A stretch of 64,000 bases of DNA. Source: an uncultured Acidimicrobiales bacterium (lineage in GTDB: Bacteria > Actinomycetota > Acidimicrobiia > Acidimicrobiales > SZUA-35). Shown piece after piece: positions 5,474 to 62,093 of this stretch. A program made the translations under genes and the position numbers. The stretch lies in the NCBI GenBank assembly GCA_937976305.1, contig CALJSB010000027.1:1-64000 (forward strand), given 5' to 3'. The stretch's first letter is position 1. The number at the start of each line of letters is the position of its first letter. The notes beneath the pieces are model-generated. The model was not told where the DNA came from. It searched no databases and saw only the letters and a list, made by a program, of their open reading frames with translations.

Positions 5474-6832
5474 TCAATCGGTCGAACCCGACAACATCAC
5501 GTTGCCGATGACGAGGCTCGGCGTGCTCACTCCGCTTGGCAGGTGCTTGCGGTCGGACCCGACGTTGGTGACGTCGAGCAGCAGACGCTGCAAGGTTGAG
5601 CCAGCCGTGCACTCGCTGATCGGTTCAGCCAACTCACCGTTGCGAATGACGAGACCCTCGATGCCGACCGAGAAGTCGCCAGACACGGCGTTGACGCCCG
5701 AGTGGAGCCCGGCCAAGTTGAACACGAGGATGCCGTCGTCGACCCCTGCGATCAGCTCGTCGAGCGTGCCGCCATCGCCGTTGGCCACTGAAAGCGCGTG
5801 GATGCCCGGGCTTGGCAACCCACGGGTGCCCCGCACGGCTGAGCCGGTTGAGCCGGTTCCGGCCCGACGGCCGGTGTAAGAGTCGTAGAGATAGCCCTTG
5901 AGCACGCCGTCCACCACAAGGTCGTTGGGTCGGCAAGCCAGCCCCTCACCGTCGTGGGAGTCGGCACCGAGCGAGTCAGGGTCGGTCGGGTCATCAACGA
6001 AGGTGAGCGACGGGGCCGCCACCTCTTCACCGACGCGATCAACAAACGGCGACCGCTGCTTGACGATGCGATCACCAGTAAGTGTTCCGGCGATCAGGCC
6101 GATCACGGTGGCCGACAGGTGGGGGTCGAGCACGAGGCTGACCGGCTTGGTTCCCGGCTTGCTGGCTCCGATGAGATCAGTGGCCCGGCTCACAGCTCGG
6201 TTGGCCACCCACTCGAGGTCGAGCTCAGACGGGCGACGAGCGCCATCGCCGGCGTAGCCGGTTTGGGTTCGGTCACCGTCATCGGCAAGTGCTTGCACGC
6301 CGAGGCCGGCCGACGTGGAGCGAGTGTGCGCTTGCACGCCTGCCGAACTCGCCAGTGCAAAGCTGCTTGCGGAGTCGCCGTAGGACGCAACTCGTACGCC
6401 TGAGATGCGAGGGTCGCCGTCGAGCACCCGACGTTCGAGGTCGATGGCCAAGGCGATGCGCTCGTCGCTCGTCATGGCAGGCACTTCGTCACGCCACAGA
6501 TCGACATCAACCGCTTCGACACCATCTGGTTCTGCGATCCCAGCATCGGGATCGGCCTCGGCGTAGCTGGCGTTGTCTCGGGCATCGGCCAGCGTTCGAT
6601 CGAGTAGGTCGGCATCGAGGGTTCCCGCGCTGGCGAAGCCTTCTCGGCCGTCGCGGATCACTCGAACTCCGACACCCTGGGTTTCGGCACTCGTGAACGA
6701 TTCGACTTCACCTCCGTAGACACGGACCGTTGTCGACACGGAATGACCGCATGCCACTTCGATCTGCTCGCCTGCTTCGGCCCGGCCAACAAGGCGGTTA
6801 GCCACCTCGAGCAATGCCGCTGAGTCGGTCAT
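5474..6832 (-). CDS. tldE: TldE (PmbA)-type subunit of the TldD/TldE metalloprotease
   Basis: 452 aa, normal length. The N-terminal domain has the family pattern TTVRVYGGEVESFTSAET followed by GVGVRVIRDGREGFAS. The C-terminal domain contains GTRGLPSPG, a hydrophobic FNLAGLHSGV region and SGDFSVGIEGLVIRNGEL. It lacks HExxxH, as expected for the non-catalytic partner that forms a heterodimer with TldD. The ATG overlaps the tldD stop by four bases (ATGA), so the two are translationally coupled. The pair degrades unfolded or peptide substrates and in some bacteria matures ribosomal peptides; no precursor peptide was seen nearby. Confidence 0.92.
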   Translation of the reverse strand: MTDSAALLEVANRLVGRAEAGEQIEVACGHSVSTTVRVYGGEVESFTSAETQGVGVRVIRDGREGFASAGTLDADLLDRTLADARDNASYAEADPDAGIAEPDGVEAVDVDLWRDEVPAMTSDERIALAIDLERRVLDGDPRISGVRVASYGDSASSFALASSAGVQAHTRSTSAGLGVQALADDGDRTQTGYAGDGARRPSELDLEWVANRAVSRATDLIGASKPGTKPVSLVLDPHLSATVIGLIAGTLTGDRIVKQRSPFVDRVGEEVAAPSLTFVDDPTDPDSLGADSHDGEGLACRPNDLVVDGVLKGYLYDSYTGRRAGTGSTGSAVRGTRGLPSPGIHALSVANGDGGTLDELIAGVDDGILVFNLAGLHSGVNAVSGDFSVGIEGLVIRNGELAEPISECTAGSTLQRLLLDVTNVGSDRKHLPSGVSTPSLVIGNVMLSGSTD

Positions 6833-8217
6833 GCTGCGGTGCCACCGATCGTCATTTCAGTCACCCGAAGCGTCGGCACGCCGTCACCGACGGGGACACC
6901 CTGGCCGTCTTTGCCACAGGTGCCGGGAGGACCCATCTCGAAGTCGTTTCCGACGGCATCGATCTGTTGCAGCACCTTCGGGCCGTTGCCGATGAGCTGG
7001 CCCTCGCGCAGAGGGGCCGTGATCTTGCCGTCTTCGATGAGGTAGGCCTCGGTCATACCAAACACGAAGTCACCAGACGCCGTGTTGACCTGACCACCAC
7101 CGAGCTTGGCGACATACACGCCGTTGTCAACGCCCGCGATGATCTCGTCTGGGGTCTGGTCGCCCGGGGCGAGGTAGGTGTTGGTCATGCGCACCATGGG
7201 GAGATGGCGGTAGCTCTGGCGCCGACCGTTGCCGCTCGAGCGGCGACCATCTTGACGGGCTCGATTGCCATCCCACATGTAATCGACGAGCACGCCCTTT
7301 TCGATCAAGACATTCCGGGCTGCCGGCTGGCCTTCGTCGTCGACGGCGTAGTGGCCCCACTCCCCTGCCATCGTGCCGTCATCGATCAGGGTGACGAGCG
7401 GCGATGCAACCTGCTGACCGACGCGATCGGCGAATGCTGAGGCGCCCTTGCGCACGAGGTCGGCTTCGAGGCCGTGCCCACATGCTTCGTGAAAGAGCAC
7501 GCCGCCCGAGCCCGGGCCGATCACCACGACATGTGTTCCAGAAGGTGCGGGACGAGCTTCGAGCTTGGTCATCGCTCGCTCCGCTGCGTTCGTTGCGAGC
7601 TGGTCGACGTCGTATCGATCGAACAATTCGAACCCGATGGCGTGACCGATCGATTCGTACCCGGTCTGCAGACCGGAGTCGCCCTTGGCGACACAGGTCA
7701 CGGCGAAGTTGGTGCGGGTCTGATCGTCTGTGGCAAAGACCCCATCAGAATTAGCGACGAGGATGCGGCGGCGATTGTCGCCCTGGCGCGCACTCACCTG
7801 CGTGATGGCGTCGTTGTACGCCCTCGCGACTTCGTCGGCTCGACGGACGAGGGCAACCTTGCGAGCCTTGTCGACAGTCGCTGGGTCGACTTGGGCATCG
7901 CTCGAAGCGGTCGGGCCAGATTCGATCTCGATCGTGCGAGCACCGCCACCCTCGGCCTTTGCTGCATCGGCCGCTGCCTTCGCTGCTGCGAGCAATCGGT
8001 CTTCGGAGAGATCAGCGGTATGGGCAAATCCAGTTGTCTCGCCCGAGATCACACGAATTCCGGCACCGCGATCGCGACTCGACGAGAGGTTCTCGACTCG
8101 CCCATCGTCGAGGTTGACACCACTGCGTTCGACGTCTTCGACGAAGATCTCAGCAAAGTCGGCCCCTCCGGCGAGACCAGTCGAAAGCACACGGTTGATC
8201 GTCTGTTCATCAATCAC
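6829..8217 (-). CDS. tldD: TldD metalloprotease, catalytic subunit
   Basis: About 462 aa. The zinc-binding HEACGHGLEAD (HExxxH) is present, followed by the conserved C-terminal segments RQSYRHLPMVRMTNTYL and NTASGDFVFGMTEAYLIEDGKI. The N-terminal domain has the AGGADFAEIFVE and SRDRGAGIRVISGETTGFA family patterns. The start is placed at the GTG at 8217 because TACGCT lies 7 bases upstream on the minus strand; an upstream TTG at 8247 has no promoter or ribosome site. It forms an operon with tldE, with a four-base overlap. Divergent from dxs. Confidence 0.93.
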   Translation of the reverse strand: MIDEQTINRVLSTGLAGGADFAEIFVEDVERSGVNLDDGRVENLSSSRDRGAGIRVISGETTGFAHTADLSEDRLLAAAKAAADAAKAEGGGARTIEIESGPTASSDAQVDPATVDKARKVALVRRADEVARAYNDAITQVSARQGDNRRRILVANSDGVFATDDQTRTNFAVTCVAKGDSGLQTGYESIGHAIGFELFDRYDVDQLATNAAERAMTKLEARPAPSGTHVVVIGPGSGGVLFHEACGHGLEADLVRKGASAFADRVGQQVASPLVTLIDDGTMAGEWGHYAVDDEGQPAARNVLIEKGVLVDYMWDGNRARQDGRRSSGNGRRQSYRHLPMVRMTNTYLAPGDQTPDEIIAGVDNGVYVAKLGGGQVNTASGDFVFGMTEAYLIEDGKITAPLREGQLIGNGPKVLQQIDAVGNDFEMGPPGTCGKDGQGVPVGDGVPTLRVTEMTIGGTAA

Positions 8218-8224
8218 GCTCTCA

Positions 8225-8230
8225 AGCGTA
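8225..8230 (-). promoter_or_regulatory. -10 box of a probable leaderless promoter for tldDE
   Basis: TACGCT on the minus strand, 7 bases before the GTG at 8217. Supports a start later than the longest frame. Confidence 0.45.
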
Positions 8231-8338
8231 GATCGAACGGCCACCAAGAGCGGGTTCGAGCGGAATGCTGGTCAGGCGCCTGCACAGGATCTCCGCATTC
8301 TTGACATGCCCTCTCGGGCGTTCGTCCGCTAGCGTGCG

Positions 8339-45311: not shown

Positions 45312-45432
45312 CGCCCACACAGCTCCCGCTGAGCGGGAACCTCTCCCCTTGGCCGACGGCTCGGTGCCAGGCTGAAATCAGTCACCGCCTACTGTGGAGC
45401 GGGACGTCGCGAGGTTGAGGAGCTGCACCAGC

Positions 45433-46416
45433 ATGTATCGCATTGACTGTTTGCAATTTGCGAACTGGTCAGAGTCGATCTTCCGCGAGATGAACGACGG
45501 CGGTGTGCACGCCGTCCACGTCACGATCGTGTACCACGAGACCTTTCGCGAAACCGTCGCCGAGATGTCGAAATGGAACCGCTGGTTCCAAGCTCATGGC
45601 GACCTGATCATTCACGGCAAGACAGCCGCCGACGTCGATCGAGCCAAAGAGAGCGGCCGCACGGCGATCTTCTTCGGGTTTCAGAACCCATCCCCCATCG
45701 AGGCCGACATCGACCTGGTCGAGATCCTCCACGCGCTGGGCGCTCGCTTCATGCAGCTCAGCTACAACAACCAGTCGCTGCTGGCGACCGGCTGCTACGA
45801 AGATGACGATCCCGGCATCACCCGCATGGGTAAAGAGGTGATCAAGGAGATGAACCGGGTTGGCCTTGTCATCGACATGAGCCACTCAGCTGATCGCTCG
45901 ACGATCGAGGCCGCCGAGCTTTCCGAACGGCCGATCACGATCACTCACGCCAACCCCCACGCCTGGCACCCAGCGCTTCGCAACAAGCGCCACGAGGTGA
46001 TCAAAGCGGTGACAGACAACGGCGGGATGATGGGTTTCTCGCTCTACCCGCACCACTTGGCCGACAAGACCGACTGCACCCTCGAGAGCTTCTGCCACAT
46101 GGCCTTTGATGCCGCCGAAACCTACGGCGTCGAGCACTTCGGCATCGGCAGCGACCTCTGCCAAGACCAGCCAGACAGCATTGTCGAATACATGCGGGTA
46201 GGGCGCTGGACCAAAGGCATCGACTACGGAGAAGGTTCGGCTGCGGCCCCGGGCTTCCCGCCGCAACCCGATTGGTTTGGCTCCAACCTCGACTTCGGCA
46301 ACATCGAGGCGGGGTTGAAGGCCGTCGGCTTCGATGACGCTGGCGTTGCCGCAGTAATGGGCGACAACTGGTATCGGTTCTTCGCCGAGAACTTCGGCCG
46401 ACAGGAGTCGGCATGA
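45433..46416 (+). CDS. membrane dipeptidase (M19)-family protein with altered metal site
   Basis: 327 aa from the ATG at 45433, with GAGGAG 10 bases upstream. TIM-barrel family M19 features: IDMSHSADRST (H151), ITHANPHAW (H172), GIGSDL (D241) and the C-terminal GDNWYRFFAENF. But the N-terminal HxD metal motif reads IDCLQ, and the bridging Glu of GVEG is replaced in GFQNP (Q84). A normal two-zinc dipeptidase site therefore seems incomplete, so the substrate or mechanism may differ. Overlaps the next gene by four bases; first gene of an uncharacterised trio. Confidence 0.82.
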   Translation: MYRIDCLQFANWSESIFREMNDGGVHAVHVTIVYHETFRETVAEMSKWNRWFQAHGDLIIHGKTAADVDRAKESGRTAIFFGFQNPSPIEADIDLVEILHALGARFMQLSYNNQSLLATGCYEDDDPGITRMGKEVIKEMNRVGLVIDMSHSADRSTIEAAELSERPITITHANPHAWHPALRNKRHEVIKAVTDNGGMMGFSLYPHHLADKTDCTLESFCHMAFDAAETYGVEHFGIGSDLCQDQPDSIVEYMRVGRWTKGIDYGEGSAAAPGFPPQPDWFGSNLDFGNIEAGLKAVGFDDAGVAAVMGDNWYRFFAENFGRQESA

Positions 46417-48128
46417 GTGCAGCTGGCATGAGTGGGTCCGGCGCGGCGCGGCGCTCGCCCGAACTGGTGATGCGGCTCGAGCGGATGGGCTCGTTCCATC
46501 AGTGCCGGTTGTCGTTCATGCGCACGCTGCTGCGTCGGATGAAGCGCGAGGGCTGGTCCTTTGGCCGCCCCCGGTTCGAGATCGACGCAAAGGGAGTTGG
46601 CACGGCTCTCTACACCGCCACAACCTCCGGCGCGGACGGTGAGCCGCCTCGCACCTACACCCTTGTCGCTTTCGCCCACGACCTGCCGGCCGATCAGCGG
46701 TCTGACCGAGTGATCGCCACCGCGTGGGATGCCACCTTCGCATTACACGATGGGGTCCCGACCGACGCAGACATCGAGCGCTTGCGGGCCAACGTGCCGC
46801 TCCAAGAAAGCGGACGGGTCTCGGCCTCAGAGCTCACTCTTTCGCGGGCCAACCGGTCGGTGCGGTTGTTCTCGAGCGTGGTCGATTCGTTGGCCGCCGG
46901 ACGCCAGCCCAAGGTCGAAGACGTCGAGTCGATTGGGTACGCGATGCGCACCACAGCGGTGTACGGAAGCGGCAAGTTCGGCGCCGCCGATCGCCAAGCG
47001 ATCGAGGACCGCCCCGAACTGGTCGCCCCCTTCCAAGCCGAGATGCTCACCGTCTACCTGATCCGCACCTTCGTGATGGACTTGGTCGAGCACATGGCCA
47101 GGATGGCGTCGCCCGACGCCGCGGTGATCGAACCATCACTCCGTCGCCGCTTTGGCGTCGGCAACTCGACGGGTCTCGGCATGGCCCCGTTCCTGCTCAC
47201 CCACCCCCGCCTGATCAACAACTGGATCGAAGCCCGCGAAGAAGCACTGGCTCGGGTCCGAGCGCTGCCATCAGCGAGCGAGGCCGAGATCTCCATGTTC
47301 CTCGCGTCGATCGAAGCATCTCGACGAACGGTCGACAGCTGGCACTCAGAACACCCGATTCAGCAAGCCAAACTGACAGAGCTGCGAGCCGACCTCGACA
47401 TGATCGACCAGCGCCTTGCTGAGGTTTCCTTGAACGCAGCCGACCCCTGGGACGAGCTGATTGCGTGGGCGCACGACGAACTGTCCGTCGAAGGCCAGGA
47501 GCTCCTCGTTTCGTTGGTGCTCGAACCGTACGGCCCCCTCGTCGACGAACTGACCGACACCATGCATGCCGACGAAGCATCCCCGGTGCCGATTGACGGC
47601 TCTCGTCCGGTTGCGGACGTGAAAGCCATGGTCGATCAGGTCTACGGCTGGGCGCTTGCGATCGACTGGCAGTCCGCAGAAACCGATGCTCGGGCCTGGT
47701 ACGTCTCTGAAGAGAAGCTCGAGCCCAGGTTGGGCGAGCGCCACGACGAGCCGATTGGCGACTACGAACAACCGCTTCAGCCCGGGCGCGACGCCGCTCG
47801 GATGTACGCCGATCTCGACACGTGGGACGCTGAGGCAACGCTCGGCGACTTCCTCCGACGTCACCCCGAGCATCGCCACATCGCTCGCCGGCTTGAAGTG
47901 GTCGTCGATGCTCCCTACGCAGAGATTCGCGACAACACCATTGCTGCAGACATGCTGCCCATCGACCTGCTCCGGTCGAAGCTGTCGTTCTTCGGAGCCA
48001 CGCACTTCGACCCGCGATCTGATCGCTGGGTGCGCATCAACATGTTCCGCGGTGCGCCCTTCCCGCACGAGTTAGTCGACGCTGATCCAGACGCGTGGGT
48101 CTATCCCGAACCTCTCGCCACTACATGA
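46413..48128 (+). CDS. conserved protein of unknown function, 571 aa
   Basis: No signal peptide or membrane helix. An Arg-rich start (MRTLLRRMKREGWSFGRPRFEID) leads into a mixed domain with YTATTSGADGEPPRTYTLVAFAHDL, a helical middle (about residues 210-390) and a Trp/Tyr-rich C-terminus (GYGWALAIDWQSAETDARAWYVSEEKLEPR-like, GRDAARMYADLDTW, LRSKLSFFGATHFDPRSDRWVRINMFRG). I do not recognise a family. It is translationally coupled on both sides, to the M19-like gene and to the DUF3726 gene, so the three products almost certainly act together. Confidence 0.88.
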   Translation: MSAAGMSGSGAARRSPELVMRLERMGSFHQCRLSFMRTLLRRMKREGWSFGRPRFEIDAKGVGTALYTATTSGADGEPPRTYTLVAFAHDLPADQRSDRVIATAWDATFALHDGVPTDADIERLRANVPLQESGRVSASELTLSRANRSVRLFSSVVDSLAAGRQPKVEDVESIGYAMRTTAVYGSGKFGAADRQAIEDRPELVAPFQAEMLTVYLIRTFVMDLVEHMARMASPDAAVIEPSLRRRFGVGNSTGLGMAPFLLTHPRLINNWIEAREEALARVRALPSASEAEISMFLASIEASRRTVDSWHSEHPIQQAKLTELRADLDMIDQRLAEVSLNAADPWDELIAWAHDELSVEGQELLVSLVLEPYGPLVDELTDTMHADEASPVPIDGSRPVADVKAMVDQVYGWALAIDWQSAETDARAWYVSEEKLEPRLGERHDEPIGDYEQPLQPGRDAARMYADLDTWDAEATLGDFLRRHPEHRHIARRLEVVVDAPYAEIRDNTIAADMLPIDLLRSKLSFFGATHFDPRSDRWVRINMFRGAPFPHELVDADPDAWVYPEPLATT

Positions 48129-48775
48129 CCGACACCCAACTCGATCTGTCCCTCGGCGAGTTCCGTGCACTGGTGGCGAAGGCAGGGCGAGGTGTTGGCT
48201 TCACCTGGGGTCTCGCTGACGACCTCGCCTACTCAGCCAAGCGTCTCGCCGAGTTCGGCGCGCCGTCCAGCACGATGGTGATACGGCTGCTGCATCGCAT
48301 CGACGGAGTCAGCCTCAGCCGGCTGATGCCCGACGACACATGGCAACCCGACGGCGACGCGCTTTGCCCCATCTGCACCGGAACCTCGCTCGCCGACAGC
48401 TATGCGAACGACGTGGAGACCGTGTCCGTTGACATCGGGCCGGTCATCGAGCCCGCGCTCCTCGTGCCGCTCGCGGCCACGGTTCTCCCATCGACTGAGT
48501 TCGTCTGCTCGGTGTCTTGGGACGGCGGTAGCTACACGTTGAGCGCTGTCGGCCATGAGCAGGTGGGTGCACTGCCGACGATGCCAGTCCCGGTCACGGT
48601 CCGCTGGGGACCGCAGCGCTCCGAAGCGCTCGGGCATGGCGAGGCAACGCCTGCTCTTCGCAACCACCGCGTTCGATTGGACGTCAGCGTGTACGAAGAT
48701 CTCGACCGGCTGGCACAACGCACCTACGCGCCAGCGACCGATGCGAGCCGCGATGCAGGCGCAGGTCCCGCCTAG
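48125..48775 (+). CDS. DUF3726 family protein
   Basis: 216 aa from the ATG at 48125 (ATGA overlap). The start LSLGEFRALVAKAGRGVGFTWGLADDLAYSAKRLAEFG matches the DUF3726 pattern of helix plus GxxWGLAEE-like motif. The middle has CPICTGTSLADSY with a CxxC pair; the C-terminal half is beta-rich (FVCSVSWDGGSYTLSAVG). Function unknown. Third gene of the M19/571-aa/DUF3726 operon. Confidence 0.8.
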   Translation: MTDTQLDLSLGEFRALVAKAGRGVGFTWGLADDLAYSAKRLAEFGAPSSTMVIRLLHRIDGVSLSRLMPDDTWQPDGDALCPICTGTSLADSYANDVETVSVDIGPVIEPALLVPLAATVLPSTEFVCSVSWDGGSYTLSAVGHEQVGALPTMPVPVTVRWGPQRSEALGHGEATPALRNHRVRLDVSVYEDLDRLAQRTYAPATDASRDAGAGPA

Positions 48776-48937: not shown

Positions 48938-49474
48938 ATGACCGCAGCCGCCACCATCGCTTCAACCCCAACGACTACCCGCCGAGCCACCTGCGTCAAG
49001 ACCATCGTCTTCACCGACATCGAGTCATCGACTGAGTTGTCAGCGGCGCTCGGTGATGATGCGTGGCTCGATCTGCTCTTCGGCCACGAGGATGTCGTCG
49101 AGGTCTGCGCCGCTGAGTTCAACGGAACCGTCGTGAAGTCGCTCGGTGATGGGTTCATGCTGGCGTTCGACACGCCCTCCGACGCCGCTGCATTCTGCGT
49201 CACCCTCCGTCGCCGACTCGACGACCACCCGCAGCTCGGCGAGCTCCTCATTCGGGCTGGCATCCACTGCGGCTCAGTCGTTCCCCGAGGCAGTGACTTC
49301 TTCGGCACCACGGTCAACACGGCGGCCCGAGTCGCTGGCCAGGCAATCGGCGGCCAGACCTTGGTGTCGGCAGACGTCGCTGCAGCCCTCGACATAACGG
49401 CGACCGTTCCGTTCGCACAGACAGAGCTGAAGGGCCTGCCCGGCACCTACCAACTCTCATCGCTGGTGGACTGA
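48938..49474 (+). CDS. class III nucleotide cyclase (probable adenylate cyclase)
   Basis: 178 aa, a single catalytic domain. The two metal Asp are D27 (VFTDIESST) and D71 (KSLGDGFML); transition-state residues N127 and R131 lie in VNTAARV. The base-selecting pair looks like K67 and D120 (SDFFG), the usual choice for ATP, so cyclic AMP is the expected product. No membrane or sensor domain. The gene is 51 bases ahead of a protein with two cyclic-nucleotide-binding domains, an obvious candidate receptor. Confidence 0.88.
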   Translation: MTAAATIASTPTTTRRATCVKTIVFTDIESSTELSAALGDDAWLDLLFGHEDVVEVCAAEFNGTVVKSLGDGFMLAFDTPSDAAAFCVTLRRRLDDHPQLGELLIRAGIHCGSVVPRGSDFFGTTVNTAARVAGQAIGGQTLVSADVAAALDITATVPFAQTELKGLPGTYQLSSLVD

Positions 49475-49525: not shown

Positions 49526-51667
49526 ATGAACGGAGGGACCCAGGGCGACGTTCGCGAGGTGGTGCGCCGAAACGGATCGGAGCTCAGACTCGCTGCAGGT
49601 GACACCATCTGTTCAATCGGCGAAAGAAGCGACCGCGCCTTCCTCGTCGTCAACGGTGAAATCGAGGCCAGTTTGCGCGACGGTCTGATTGTCGCCACGC
49701 ACGGGCCTGGTGCGCTGGTTGGGGAGATCACCGCCCTCGTCGGTGGCCGACGCACCGCAACGCTCAGAGCAGCTCAACCGGCGACGGTGATCGAAATCGA
49801 CCGTGCCGGACTGCGGGCGGCGATCAGCGAAGCCGGACCAACGGCTGAAGCTGAGCTGGTAGCGGCCGCACGTGATCGCACCGACCGCAGTCGCGTCGCT
49901 TCACTCTTGGCCGACCAGCTCGGACCTGACCACTACGACGCCGCCACCGCCATCGCCGGGACCGTGTCGTGGATCTCACTGAGCCCGAGCGAACGACTCT
50001 TCTCTCAGGGTGACGACGCGGGCAGCGCATACCTCGTGGTGAGCGGCAGGCTCGAAGTGCTCGATCCGGCAGGCCCCGGTGCAGCCCCGTTGGCCACGAT
50101 CGGTCGGGGCGAAATCGTCGGAGAACTCGGGTTGCTCGACGGCGCCCCGCGCTCAGCAACCGTACGCGCCGTCCGACGATCGCTCGTTGCTCAGCTCGGC
50201 CGGGAAGACTTCATTCGTCTCCTTGCGTCGCATCCCGAACTACCAGCGTTGCTTGTTCGACGATCCGCCGCCCGCATGACATCGAACGTCGAACGGTCAG
50301 CTGGGGCCCGCTCGATCGCTATCGCCGACTTCGTCGCCGAGGGCCACATGCTGCCAAACATCTCTGACCAACTGGAGGCCATCGCGAACACGATGATGCT
50401 CACGCCGGGCGAGATCGATGCCGTGCTCGGTCATCCCAGCATCTCGGAGTGCCGGACCGGAGACCTTGGCGAGGCCCACCTCATTGAGCTGCTCCACGAA
50501 GCCGAGCAATCCAACGATCACCTGCTGTTCGATGTCAGCGACACCTCCGCTCCGATCTGGGCTCGCCGAGCCGTTGAGCGCGCCGATCTGCTGGTTGCGC
50601 TCGTTGACGCCAACCCAACGTCCACCCAGGTGGCCGACGTGGCAAACCTTCGTGCAGAGTCCTCGCGAACGGTTCCGCTTTGGCTCGGCGTCGTACATCC
50701 TGAACACGTCACGAAACCAACCGGCAGCGAGGCACTCCGTAAGCGCCTCGATGCTGATCGGCTCATTCACCTCAAGGGAACAAGCGACGCCGAGGTAGGT
50801 CGCCTCGCGCGGCTTGCTGCTGGGCGAGGCGTTGGCGTCGCACTCAGCGGCGGAGGCGGACGAGGCCTGGGCCATCTCGGCGTGTTGGAGGCCCTGGAAG
50901 AGCTGGGTGTGCCGATCGATGCCGTTGTTGGCACATCGATGGGCTCGGTCATCGCCGGCGTGCACGCCCAAGGTCTCGTCGGGCGAGAGCGCCGCGACGC
51001 CGTCGCAGAGCAGGTGAAGAAGCTGCTCGACTACACGCTCCCGATCGTGTCCATGATCTCCGGTCGTCGGATCAGCGACTCGATCGACAACCAGTTCGGC
51101 GACTGGGCGATCAGCGACACGTGGATTCCGTACGCCTGCGTAAGCACCAGCCTCACGCACTCGGAGCGGCGCACTCATCGCCGCGGCCCGCTCGGATCGG
51201 CCATCCGGGCATCCGTTGCCATTCCCGGCGTTCTTCCTCCGGTTCCAGCCGACGGTGAGCTGCTGGTCGACGGAGGCGTTCTCGACAATCTGCCGATCGG
51301 ACTCCTCACCGAAGACGAAGGGATTGGCACGATCATCGCCTCTGACGTCGCCCCCACGCGCGGCCCGATCGCCCGCGACGACTACGGCACGTCCGTTTCG
51401 GGGTGGCAGGCGTTGCGGCGTCAGGTTTCCAAAGGGCGGAGTCCCTACCCGGGCATCGTTGGGACACTGCTGCGGTCGACGCTGGTGAGTTCGACGAGAG
51501 ATCGTGATCGTCAGGTCGAGTCGGGCGTCATCGACTGCTATCTCCAACTCGACCTACGCGGCGTCGGCCTCCTCGAGTTCGAGGTGGTCGACGAAGTCGC
51601 CGATCGGGCCCGCGAGTTAGCCCACCCGGAACTTGCAACCTGGTGCGCCCAGCGAACCAAGGGCTGA
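49526..51667 (+). CDS. patatin-like phospholipase with two cyclic-nucleotide-binding domains
   Basis: 713 aa. Two CNB domains come first (about residues 15-115 and 135-245). Both keep the phosphate-binding cassette with Glu and Arg: GEITALVGGRRTAT and GELGLLDGAPRSAT. A linker domain of about 170 residues follows. The patatin domain begins VALSGGGGRGLGHLGVLEAL (about 433), with nucleophile elbow GTSMGS (about 469) and LVDGGVLDNLP (Asp-Gly-Gly, about 580). This is the neuropathy-target-esterase-like layout known from mycobacteria. Likely a lipid hydrolase switched by cyclic nucleotide made by the adjacent cyclase. Confidence 0.92.
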   Translation: MNGGTQGDVREVVRRNGSELRLAAGDTICSIGERSDRAFLVVNGEIEASLRDGLIVATHGPGALVGEITALVGGRRTATLRAAQPATVIEIDRAGLRAAISEAGPTAEAELVAAARDRTDRSRVASLLADQLGPDHYDAATAIAGTVSWISLSPSERLFSQGDDAGSAYLVVSGRLEVLDPAGPGAAPLATIGRGEIVGELGLLDGAPRSATVRAVRRSLVAQLGREDFIRLLASHPELPALLVRRSAARMTSNVERSAGARSIAIADFVAEGHMLPNISDQLEAIANTMMLTPGEIDAVLGHPSISECRTGDLGEAHLIELLHEAEQSNDHLLFDVSDTSAPIWARRAVERADLLVALVDANPTSTQVADVANLRAESSRTVPLWLGVVHPEHVTKPTGSEALRKRLDADRLIHLKGTSDAEVGRLARLAAGRGVGVALSGGGGRGLGHLGVLEALEELGVPIDAVVGTSMGSVIAGVHAQGLVGRERRDAVAEQVKKLLDYTLPIVSMISGRRISDSIDNQFGDWAISDTWIPYACVSTSLTHSERRTHRRGPLGSAIRASVAIPGVLPPVPADGELLVDGGVLDNLPIGLLTEDEGIGTIIASDVAPTRGPIARDDYGTSVSGWQALRRQVSKGRSPYPGIVGTLLRSTLVSSTRDRDRQVESGVIDCYLQLDLRGVGLLEFEVVDEVADRARELAHPELATWCAQRTKG

Positions 51668-59342: not shown

Positions 59343-59837
59343 ATGGCGATGCTCGGTGCAACACTCGAAGATCTGAACCAGCTGGCAACCAAGCTCAGCA
59401 CAACTGCGGGAGACGTCGGAGCCACTCGGGAGGCAGCGCTCACGCTCACGACCGAAGTTGTTGACGGCGTGACCACCGCCGCAACCCGCGCCCAGCAGCA
59501 GATCACCACCGAAATGGACGCACTCAAGCTGTCGGTGACTGATGCCGTCGCCCAAGCCGACGCCGCCGACTGGACCGGCAACAACGCACAGCGGTTCCGG
59601 GAGTCGGCAGCCGGCTTCGGCGAAGCCATGGGAGCGGCTGAGCAAACAACGGCTGAGACCTTCGAACTGTTCCGGGCCTCGGTCGTCGGCATGGCCGAGT
59701 CGCTCGATGCGTTTGTGCAGTCGCTGTCCGGGTCCCTCACCGAGGCCGAAAGCGCCGCTGGCGAAATGTCTCGGGCCGTCGACGATCAATACAACGGCCT
59801 CGACCAGGTCATGAACCATGGCCTCGGCTACCGATAG
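59343..59837 (+). CDS. WXG100-like protein (type VII secretion substrate-like)
   Basis: 164 aa, almost entirely helical and Ala-rich. The turn ADWTGNNAQRF (about residue 77) supplies a W-x-G motif between two long helices, the hallmark of ESAT-6/WXG100 proteins; the protein is longer than the usual 100 residues. Start MAMLGATLEDLNQLATKLSTTAGDV also fits. AAGGGA 8 bases upstream is a ribosome site. The next gene begins right after its stop codon, so both are co-translated, as in WXG100 gene pairs. Confidence 0.82.
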   Translation: MAMLGATLEDLNQLATKLSTTAGDVGATREAALTLTTEVVDGVTTAATRAQQQITTEMDALKLSVTDAVAQADAADWTGNNAQRFRESAAGFGEAMGAAEQTTAETFELFRASVVGMAESLDAFVQSLSGSLTEAESAAGEMSRAVDDQYNGLDQVMNHGLGYR

Positions 59838-60212
59838 GTGCCGACCGCATCAGAGTTCGAGCAGTCCGCGCTCGAACTCGATCGAGCAGCAGAAGACACC
59901 GAGTCGTTGGTGGCCGGGGCCCGAGAACTGTTTGGCGAGAACGTGCTCAGCGGTGGAGGGCTCAGTCGCCTCGTCGAGTCAACGATCGACGTGACCGAAC
60001 GGACGACTACTTCGACAGCAGCTGAGCTTCGCGAGTTGGCGAACGAGTGCCGATCCCGAGCGTCGGAGTGTCGTGCCTATGCCGCTGAGCTCGCGGCGTA
60101 CAACGAACAGCTCGAGGCCTGGCAACGCGAACGCAACGCCCTACCACCAGGTGTCGCACCACCTCGCCGGCCAACCCGGCCAAGCCGCCCCGCTTCGTGG
60201 GTCGAGATCTGA
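59838..60212 (+). CDS. helical partner protein of the WXG100-like protein
   Basis: 124 aa, GTG start directly abutting the previous TAG. Two helices (EFEQSALELDRAAEDTESLVAGARELF and TSTAAELRELANECRSRASECRAYAAELAAYNEQLEAWQRE) joined by a Gly-rich turn, then a Pro/Arg-rich tail. No W-x-G is seen at the turn. Size, layout and position suggest the second member of an ESX-like heterodimer or a chaperone for the large protein downstream; this is inferred. Confidence 0.75.
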   Translation: MPTASEFEQSALELDRAAEDTESLVAGARELFGENVLSGGGLSRLVESTIDVTERTTTSTAAELRELANECRSRASECRAYAAELAAYNEQLEAWQRERNALPPGVAPPRRPTRPSRPASWVEI

Positions 60213-60224
60213 GAGAGATGAGCA

Positions 60225-62093
60225 ATGGGATCAGCGCAACAGGTCGCCATCGACCCAACTGAGGTTCGACGAAGCGCCGGACAGCTCCGCCTGCGGGCCG
60301 ACAACGCAGACGACATCAGCGGAGAAGCAACTCGAGCGTTGTTCCGGGCCGGGCTGTCGTCGTCGGCGCCCTCTGCCCTTTCCGAGGTGGACGAAGAGCT
60401 GCACCTGTTGGCCGAAATTCTGGTGCAGCGAGCGAACATGGTCGACAGCAACCAGCTGACGCTCGCCCTCTACCCCTGGAGCCACGTCGAGCAGTTGTGG
60501 GAGTCGCTGGTCGACGGTGATGGTGCCACGGCGATCATCGCGGGCGACAACGCTCTTGTCATTGTGCGACAACACGCTGACGATCTCGACACCGACGGCG
60601 ATGGCCTCATCGGGCTGACCGAGCTTCGGGCCGCTGCTGACGACCCAACCCACCCTGCCCTTGCTGCGGCGGCCACATCGCTCCTTGGGAGTCAGTCCAC
60701 CCTCGACGCGCTCGTCGCCGCCACCGATGCCGAGATCTTCTTCGTGCCTGAGCTGGCGATCTCGACCTCCGCCCTCAGCGACCTGTTGGCCACCAACGAC
60801 ACATTGCGGCGGGACGCCGTGACCGCCGCATCCGCGCTGGCGGACGGCAAGACCACCGTCGAGATCGACGGCAAGACGGTCGATGCCACGAAGATCGTTG
60901 CCGATGCGATCAACAATCAGGTGTTCTCCCACGACGCTGGTTCGGCCTATGAGTTCTTGCAGCTGTTGCCGAATTCGGCCAGCGGCGTACCCGGATTTTC
61001 GATCTTTGCCGCCCAGACCGACACGGTGCAGTCGCTCTACGACGCAGCCATGACCGATGTGGCCGAAGACGACTTCCTGACTCGATTCTCGATCGTGACG
61101 CAGATGCCCGAAACAACCGACGGGATCCGCAACCACTACATCACCGAGCTCTACGCCCTCGCTTCCACATCCCTCGAGGGCATGGTCAACCCGGACCAGA
61201 TGGGTGACCCGACGCAACCCGGCCATGGCGGAACCACCTGGCCCACGTGGGGCGCAGCCGCATCAAACACCGTCAAGGGCGCCATTACCGGCGACACGAC
61301 GATCCTCGGAAGGCCACCAACCAACATTGCCAAGCAGCTCATGGCAGACGGCAACCAAGAGATCGCCACGACCATCCTCGGGAAGTACTTCGAGTTCGTC
61401 GAGATCTTCGGAGACGGCGACATCACTGACACCAAGGTCACGGACTTTCTCAACAGCTTCGACGAAGGCGAGCGCGAACTTCAGATTGCGTTTGCGCTCC
61501 AACTCGCAGCGATGACGACGGACGACCCGACGGAGAAACAGAAGTTCCAGCTCCAGTCAAACATCGCCGTCTCGGTCTACGAACAAGCAGTGATCGACGA
61601 CGAACTCGACTTCAACCGGCTCGAAATCGAAGCGCGGATTGGCGCTCACGCTCTCACGGCCGTCATCTCGATCGCCTCGGGGGACCTGCCGCCCACATCG
61701 AAAAGTGTGGCGGAGATCATGACCGAGCACGGCAAACTCGAGCTCGAAGCCGAGGACGGCGAGGGCACCTCTTTCGAGCTCGACGAACCCATCCCCCCGG
61801 GCCCGGAAGACAACAACCTCATCGATGACCTCGATCTCAGCGATGAGCTGAACCCGGCGAACTACGAACTCAGCGAGATCGACATTCCGGGCATCGAACA
61901 GGTCGAACCCGTCTCGGGGATCGACACCACAACTGGACTGTCGGGCAACTCGAACGACTGGACGCAGCCGTCCACGCCCGTGTCGGACTGGACCACCTAT
62001 GGCCAGCGAATGTCCGTCGTGGCAGATCTCTTGCACAAGCATCACGTGAATCCCGCCGCCTACGAAAACGTCGACGTCATCCTCGATCGCTAG
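60225..62093 (+). CDS. large EF-hand protein of the type VII-like locus, unknown function
   Basis: 622 aa without signal peptide. The N-terminal 75 residues (PTEVRRSAGQLRLRADNADDISGEATRAL) look like an ESX-type helical targeting module. A textbook EF-hand loop DTDGDGLIGLTE lies at residues 122-133. The helical middle has FSIFAAQTDTVQSLYDAA, HYITELYALAS and HGGTTWPTWGAAASNTVKG; the C-terminal 120 residues are acidic and Pro-rich. No toxin active site identified. Follows the WXG100-like pair by 12 bases in one operon; likely a secreted effector or structural product. Confidence 0.8.
   Translation: MGSAQQVAIDPTEVRRSAGQLRLRADNADDISGEATRALFRAGLSSSAPSALSEVDEELHLLAEILVQRANMVDSNQLTLALYPWSHVEQLWESLVDGDGATAIIAGDNALVIVRQHADDLDTDGDGLIGLTELRAAADDPTHPALAAAATSLLGSQSTLDALVAATDAEIFFVPELAISTSALSDLLATNDTLRRDAVTAASALADGKTTVEIDGKTVDATKIVADAINNQVFSHDAGSAYEFLQLLPNSASGVPGFSIFAAQTDTVQSLYDAAMTDVAEDDFLTRFSIVTQMPETTDGIRNHYITELYALASTSLEGMVNPDQMGDPTQPGHGGTTWPTWGAAASNTVKGAITGDTTILGRPPTNIAKQLMADGNQEIATTILGKYFEFVEIFGDGDITDTKVTDFLNSFDEGERELQIAFALQLAAMTTDDPTEKQKFQLQSNIAVSVYEQAVIDDELDFNRLEIEARIGAHALTAVISIASGDLPPTSKSVAEIMTEHGKLELEAEDGEGTSFELDEPIPPGPEDNNLIDDLDLSDELNPANYELSEIDIPGIEQVEPVSGIDTTTGLSGNSNDWTQPSTPVSDWTTYGQRMSVVADLLHKHHVNPAAYENVDVILDR

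Follow-up and report, generated by a model that had tools for sequence, protein, structure and literature searches.

What would a bacterium do with a peptidase-like enzyme, a large protein of no named family and a DUF3726 protein whose genes run into one another? We addressed this question for three genes in a 64,000-nucleotide stretch of DNA (hereafter the window) from an uncultured Acidimicrobiales bacterium, in which a homologue of peptidase family M19, a protein of 571 amino acids (aa) (hereafter named P2) and a DUF3726 protein are encoded in this order, with an ATGA overlap at both junctions. A sequence-only reading had reported three genes with four-base overlaps, and its coordinates and both junctions were correct (Table 1); it had also proposed a hydrolase-headed set acting on an amino-acid conjugate. 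Our analysis bears out part of this reading and points elsewhere for the substrate. We consider it likely, though well short of certain, that the three genes encode the core enzymes of a catabolic module, horizontally transferred, that breaks down homarine (N-methylpicolinate) or a pyridinium betaine very like it.

A conserved three-gene module

A scan of public genomes yielded 80 P2 loci, 76 with a called P2 gene and 70 well flanked, the latter mostly from Rhodobacterales. An M19 gene lay at most two genes upstream of P2 in 69 of the 76, DUF3726 was the next gene in 69, and both were in place in 66; the gap between P2 and DUF3726 was exactly −4 in 58 of 69 relatives. This linkage of the three genes is far beyond chance, and the trio is a genuine conserved module. 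The sequence-only reading had turned on the three families being neighbours elsewhere, as a dedicated system in distant phyla. The neighbourhood search bore this out, finding the system in Actinomycetota and Pseudomonadota and, in a haloarchaeon, P2 accompanied by a partner that resembles Ldh_2.

Within the window's order, 36 of 298 genomes carried P2, as did five of 397 genomes sampled from the phylum (the window's own, a second from its order and three belonging to two other families). Two arrangements occur within the order, M19–P2–DUF3726 (the window type) and P2–M19–small protein, often with Ldh_2, and M19 adjoined P2 in 31 of the 33 loci having P2 and both flanks (counted by hand). P2 also turned up in 168 plasmid records, most of them from Sinorhizobium, Phaeobacter and other Alphaproteobacteria, and on one haloarchaeal plasmid; R. 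pomeroyi was absent among the best 20 plasmid matches listed for P2. Long open frames in genomes G420 and G440 had hinted at a P2–M19 fusion; at L067, however, M19 turned out to be a separate gene beside P2. The genes beside the clade-B P2 of L047, guessed by size to be sarcosine oxidase subunits, are really a helicase, Lgt, an acyl-CoA dehydrogenase and similar genes; it is the plasmid loci that connect P2 with soxBDAG.

In the window, no other gene around the trio recurs in related genomes, and the operon in this genome is therefore taken to be the trio alone. The overlaps suggest that the three genes are translationally coupled. For M19, the start at 45433 was preferred over the GTG at 45394, since most relatives start shortly before the ID-x-LQ motif. 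The P2 start at ATG 46413 is backed by coupled overlaps in relatives, whereas the gene caller favours 46470, and the exact start is uncertain.

Table 1. Positions of the trio and its overlaps in the window
Feature	Coordinates	Strand	Basis
Atypical peptidase-family M19 homologue, 327 aa	45433..46416	+	Pfam PF01244; closest solved relative 2i5g
M19/P2 ATGA overlap	46413..46416	+	Sequence
P2, 571-aa conserved protein, function unassigned, candidate ring-opening enzyme	46413..48128	+	No family; AF2 model
P2/DUF3726 ATGA overlap	48125..48128	+	Sequence; same −4 gap in 58/69 relatives
DUF3726 protein, 216 aa, putative reduced Ldh_2-fold partner of P2	48125..48775	+	Pfam PF12525; AF2; Foldseek

P2, DUF3726 and M19 proteins

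That the 571-aa protein fits no family had been noted from its sequence, and both sequence searches and the predicted structure agreed, with no match to a known enzyme. P2 had no match in Pfam, NCBIfam or PDB sequences, in single or profile searches, and its AlphaFold2 (AF2) model [predicted local distance difference test (pLDDT) 90.6, predicted TM-score (pTM) 0.92, alignment of 75 sequences] found no structural match with Foldseek in the PDB (best E 0.34, TM 0.09) and none in BFVD. PADLOC was negative as well, and weak matches to the PE family and to chemoreceptors look like helical noise. The model suggests that P2 has an apparently new fold, inside which a small known domain, too weak for Foldseek, may lie. 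Among 139 sequences, seven arginine residues (R99, R135, R151, R179, R218, R439 and R493), a glycine-rich loop (G-x-G-N-x-x-G-x-G at 248–256) and W271, E276, S432 and E437 were fixed; H264 was the sole near-invariant histidine and no cysteine was near-invariant.

The DUF3726 protein matched Pfam PF12525 with E 6.5e-9 (36 bits against a gathering threshold of 22.1) and gave an AF2 model of pLDDT 91.1. Its best Foldseek matches were nearly all Ldh_2 enzymes (probability 1.00, best E 1.4e-3, TMq up to 0.59), and a profile alignment with Ldh_2 extended over 45 N-terminal columns (E 2.9e-4). This family comprises malate/L-lactate, ureidoglycolate and sulfolactate dehydrogenases and delta1-piperideine-2-carboxylate reductase, and a true Ldh_2 gene often comes directly after DUF3726, which shares the predicted fold. 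At 216 aa against about 335, however, DUF3726 falls short by ~120 residues, and the motifs conserved in the Ldh_2 neighbours are missing from its consensus, so that it has neither the length nor the motifs of a full-length NAD(P)-binding Ldh_2 enzyme and is unlikely to be a dehydrogenase. Small partners in S. meliloti, Bosea, Mesorhizobium and L059 aligned with DUF3726 over most of the length (E 1.1e-6), and the haloarchaeal partner of P2 matched Ldh_2 itself at E 4.8e-9. For the third gene of clade B (A5), profile comparison did not establish membership of DUF3726, though one member weakly matches the Pfam model. Taken together, the modelling suggests that DUF3726 is a cut-down Ldh_2 fold and a partner of P2. 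A literature search on DUF3726 found nothing. The earlier reading was right that the trio is uncharacterised; DUF3726, described there as having no function, has a fold that can be recognised, a reduced Ldh_2.

The M19 protein clearly belongs to its family (PF01244, E 4.7e-67, 226.9 bits against a cut-off of 26), with the match running from profile position 36 onwards and the N-terminal stretch unmatched. An alignment of 102 homologues upheld its description as atypical. Q84, Y111, H151, H172, R183 and D241 were invariant in all 102, and H151, H172, R183 and D241 are shared with the renal-dipeptidase-type enzymes; the two histidine residues of the metal site are kept. In contrast, the HxD metal motif was present in only four homologues and absent in 98, and the bridging glutamate of canonical M19 enzymes was glutamine in every one. 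As judged from these residues, the canonical two-zinc site cannot form in the window protein as it does in dipeptidases, and we therefore regard it as not a canonical dipeptidase; because it lacks metal-binding residues typical of those enzymes, the activity on dipeptides, beta-lactams or related amides once proposed for it loses its footing. The closest relative among PDB sequences, 2i5g (E 2.6e-49), has the same altered motifs (GFQN, no HxD); we take it to be PA5396 of Pseudomonas aeruginosa, presumably encoded beside glycine-betaine genes.

Operon context and a putative homarine route

Near P2 in the 70 well-flanked loci, M19 was found in 66, DUF3726 in 66, an aldehyde dehydrogenase (ALDH) in 50, LysR in 44, Ldh_2 in 29 and BCCT in 15. 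The fuller operons comprise LysR, ALDH, M19, sometimes BCCT, P2 and DUF3726, often followed by Ldh_2 and by a transporter of the BCCT or ProVWX type, and annotated Roseobacter and Roseateles plasmids likewise carry ALDH, M19, a BCCT or glycine-betaine ABC transporter, P2, DUF3726 and Ldh. In full operons the ALDH stands at the head, rather than the M19 hydrolase as had been supposed. The nearest curated models of this ALDH (below cut-off) are 2,5-dioxovalerate and alpha-ketoglutaric semialdehyde dehydrogenase, and the nearest PDB entry of the operon Ldh_2 is 1wtj, a delta1-piperideine-2-carboxylate reductase. In TM1040 and on the Roseateles plasmid sarcosine-oxidase-type soxBDAG stands beside the module, in Roseateles together with purU and folD, and in TM1040 a helix-turn-helix gene adjoins soxBDAG; sox-type genes also lie near P2 at L128, L135, L141 and L149. 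Elsewhere we observed a cluster on pSymB of the model rhizobium S. meliloti 1021 (L076:11238-22318) in the order regulator, P2, DUF3726-like gene, M19, ABC transporter, aminotransferase and ALDH. Two further P2 loci (L153:4971-8893 and L054:13487-17520) contain genes for a luciferase-like monooxygenase, PF06684 and ALDHs; this monooxygenase could be an alternative ring-opening oxygenase or part of a second betaine pathway.

Homarine is an abundant N-methylated osmolyte of the sea. The commonest complete operon is LysR–ALDH–M19–P2–DUF3726–Ldh_2, and exactly this layout of five genes plus a regulator was seen in 15 of the 70 loci. The homarine operon is reportedly named homABCDER, which would also be five genes and a regulator. 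With that operon (Ferrer-Gonzalez et al. 2026) the module appears to share a marine Rhodobacterales setting, in many relatives the reported layout of five genes plus a regulator and, at some loci, a possible link to N-methylglutamate dehydrogenase (Mgd), whereas at the window locus no more than three genes are clustered, and these in an actinomycetote. Genes annotated as soxBDAG have been proposed to encode Mgd in SAR11 (PMC3160333). An AraC-type regulator adjoins mgdABCD in R. pomeroyi, to which we liken the helix-turn-helix gene of TM1040, and the same paper states, citing Ferrer-Gonzalez et al. 2026 (Nat Microbiol, doi 10.1038/s41564-026-02313-7), that Mgd takes part in homarine catabolism (PMC13390433). 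R. pomeroyi also draws down homarine fast (PMC12817926). The literature searched, in which Ferrer-Gonzalez et al. 2026 was not covered, gave no account of homarine ring opening.

Gene linkage and family resemblance together suggest the following chemistry, the role of P2 as ring-opener included. On the way from homarine to N-methylglutamate one carbon would be lost, and the simplest candidate is ring carbon 6; if the ring were cut between C5 and C6, an N-formyl group and a C5 aldehyde would remain. We tentatively assign the opening of the pyridinium ring to P2, with DUF3726 as a partner that is not a dehydrogenase, because ALDH, M19 and Ldh_2 could supply the remaining steps. The ALDH, which resembles 2,5-dioxovalerate dehydrogenase, would oxidise the C5 aldehyde; the altered M19 protein would hydrolyse the remaining N-acyl (N-formyl) or enamide bond; and the Ldh_2 protein, which resembles delta1-piperideine-2-carboxylate reductase, would reduce the N-methyl imine to N-methylglutamate, which Mgd would then turn into glutamate. 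An N-methylated pyridine betaine such as homarine, to which the neighbouring genes point, would take the place of the amino-acid conjugate or lactam envisaged earlier.

Origin of the window copy and alternative explanations

In the P2 tree, the window clade (11 Acidimicrobiia rows, support 100/99) nests in an alphaproteobacterial clade (28 rows, 98/93), apart from other Acidimicrobiia P2, and its members are 58–64% identical with the Rhodobacterales branch. Because the window clade lies inside the alphaproteobacterial tree, we regard horizontal transfer of the window copy as probable; the module would then have passed from Alphaproteobacteria into Actinomycetota. Genes unlinked to the trio could complete the route in the window genome, namely an Ldh_2 (42% identity), several ALDHs (30–33%), a ProV–ProW–OpuAC transporter, and a soxB–soxA–soxG-like set with folD that is split over two contig ends.

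Several points weigh against a homarine module. No ALDH, Ldh_2, regulator or transporter is linked to the window copy, and the window genome yielded no BCCT. Mgd-like genes lie within about 10 kb of P2 in a minority of loci only (soxB at seven of the 80). No cofactor or metal site can be recognised in P2, and the proposed identity of the trio with the published hom operon comes from gene context. In S. meliloti, Bosea and Natrinema, distant relatives are found beside other transporters and may have other substrates.

One alternative is that the module degrades another N-methylated or quaternary betaine (trigonelline, stachydrine or a carnitine-like compound), the substrate varying by P2 branch, in which case homarine would not have to be the substrate of the window copy. 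The transporters do vary (BCCT, ProVWX-type, spermidine-type and other ABC), and the loci with the luciferase-like monooxygenase and PF06684 are laid out much like the known trigonelline pathway. In that pathway (Tgn) of Acinetobacter baylyi, a luciferase-like oxygenase and a flavin reductase break down trigonelline, likewise an N-methylpyridinium carboxylate, by way of ring opening and the steps of an aldehyde dehydrogenase and a hydrolase, whereas most P2 loci lack such an oxygenase and have P2 instead. Trigonelline is not expected to yield N-methylglutamate, however, and Mgd-like genes stand at several loci of the Rhodobacterales branch in which the window clade is nested; we thus judge another betaine to be an unlikely substrate here. 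It is very improbable that the stripped trio of Acidimicrobiia has been repurposed or is decaying after transfer in a host without homarine catabolism. Although the missing linked partners (ALDH, Ldh_2, LysR and transporter) of the window-type clade would fit such a history, the three frames are intact and conserved in about ten related genomes (P2 roughly 70–78% identity) with the invariant residues unchanged, and candidate partner genes are present elsewhere in the window genome. We give least credence, and very little of it, to the view that a genuine M19 hydrolase stands at the head of a pathway for cleaving a dipeptide, a beta-lactam or an amino-acid conjugate: the family membership and the four retained residues would suit it, but the metal site is altered as described above, and the genes nearby are for betaine transport and N-methyl amines rather than for peptides or lactams.

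We would further put forward, as a tentative idea, that P2 with a new fold, the degenerate Ldh_2-fold DUF3726 and the metal-altered M19 form one complex that opens N-methylpyridinium rings, in a family that serves several betaines across bacteria and haloarchaea.

Other genes in the window lie outside this argument. Downstream of the trio, a class III nucleotide cyclase domain protein (48938-49474, + strand) directly precedes a protein that combines two cyclic-nucleotide-binding domains with a patatin-like phospholipase (49526-51667, +). PADLOC gave weak matches to Pycsar cyclase, the cNMP and patatin domains match Pycsar/CBASS effectors, and the two genes could act together in cyclic-nucleotide signalling or defence. 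The window also encodes a phytanoyl-CoA dioxygenase-family protein (PF05721; 36801-37940, −), two TldD/TldE-type (PmbA/TldD) metallopeptidases in adjacent genes (5474-8244, −) and three consecutive genes resembling small helical WXG/type VII-type proteins with a larger partner (59343-62093, +), two of which were tested and had no Pfam match.

The window trio is probably a transferred, reduced form of a recently reported catabolic system. For the families concerned, DUF3726 gains a fold and a genetic partner, and this branch of M19 should not carry a dipeptidase annotation. If the assignment holds, P2, widely conserved yet of no named family and with no PDB match, would be the direct target for the ring-opening step of homarine.
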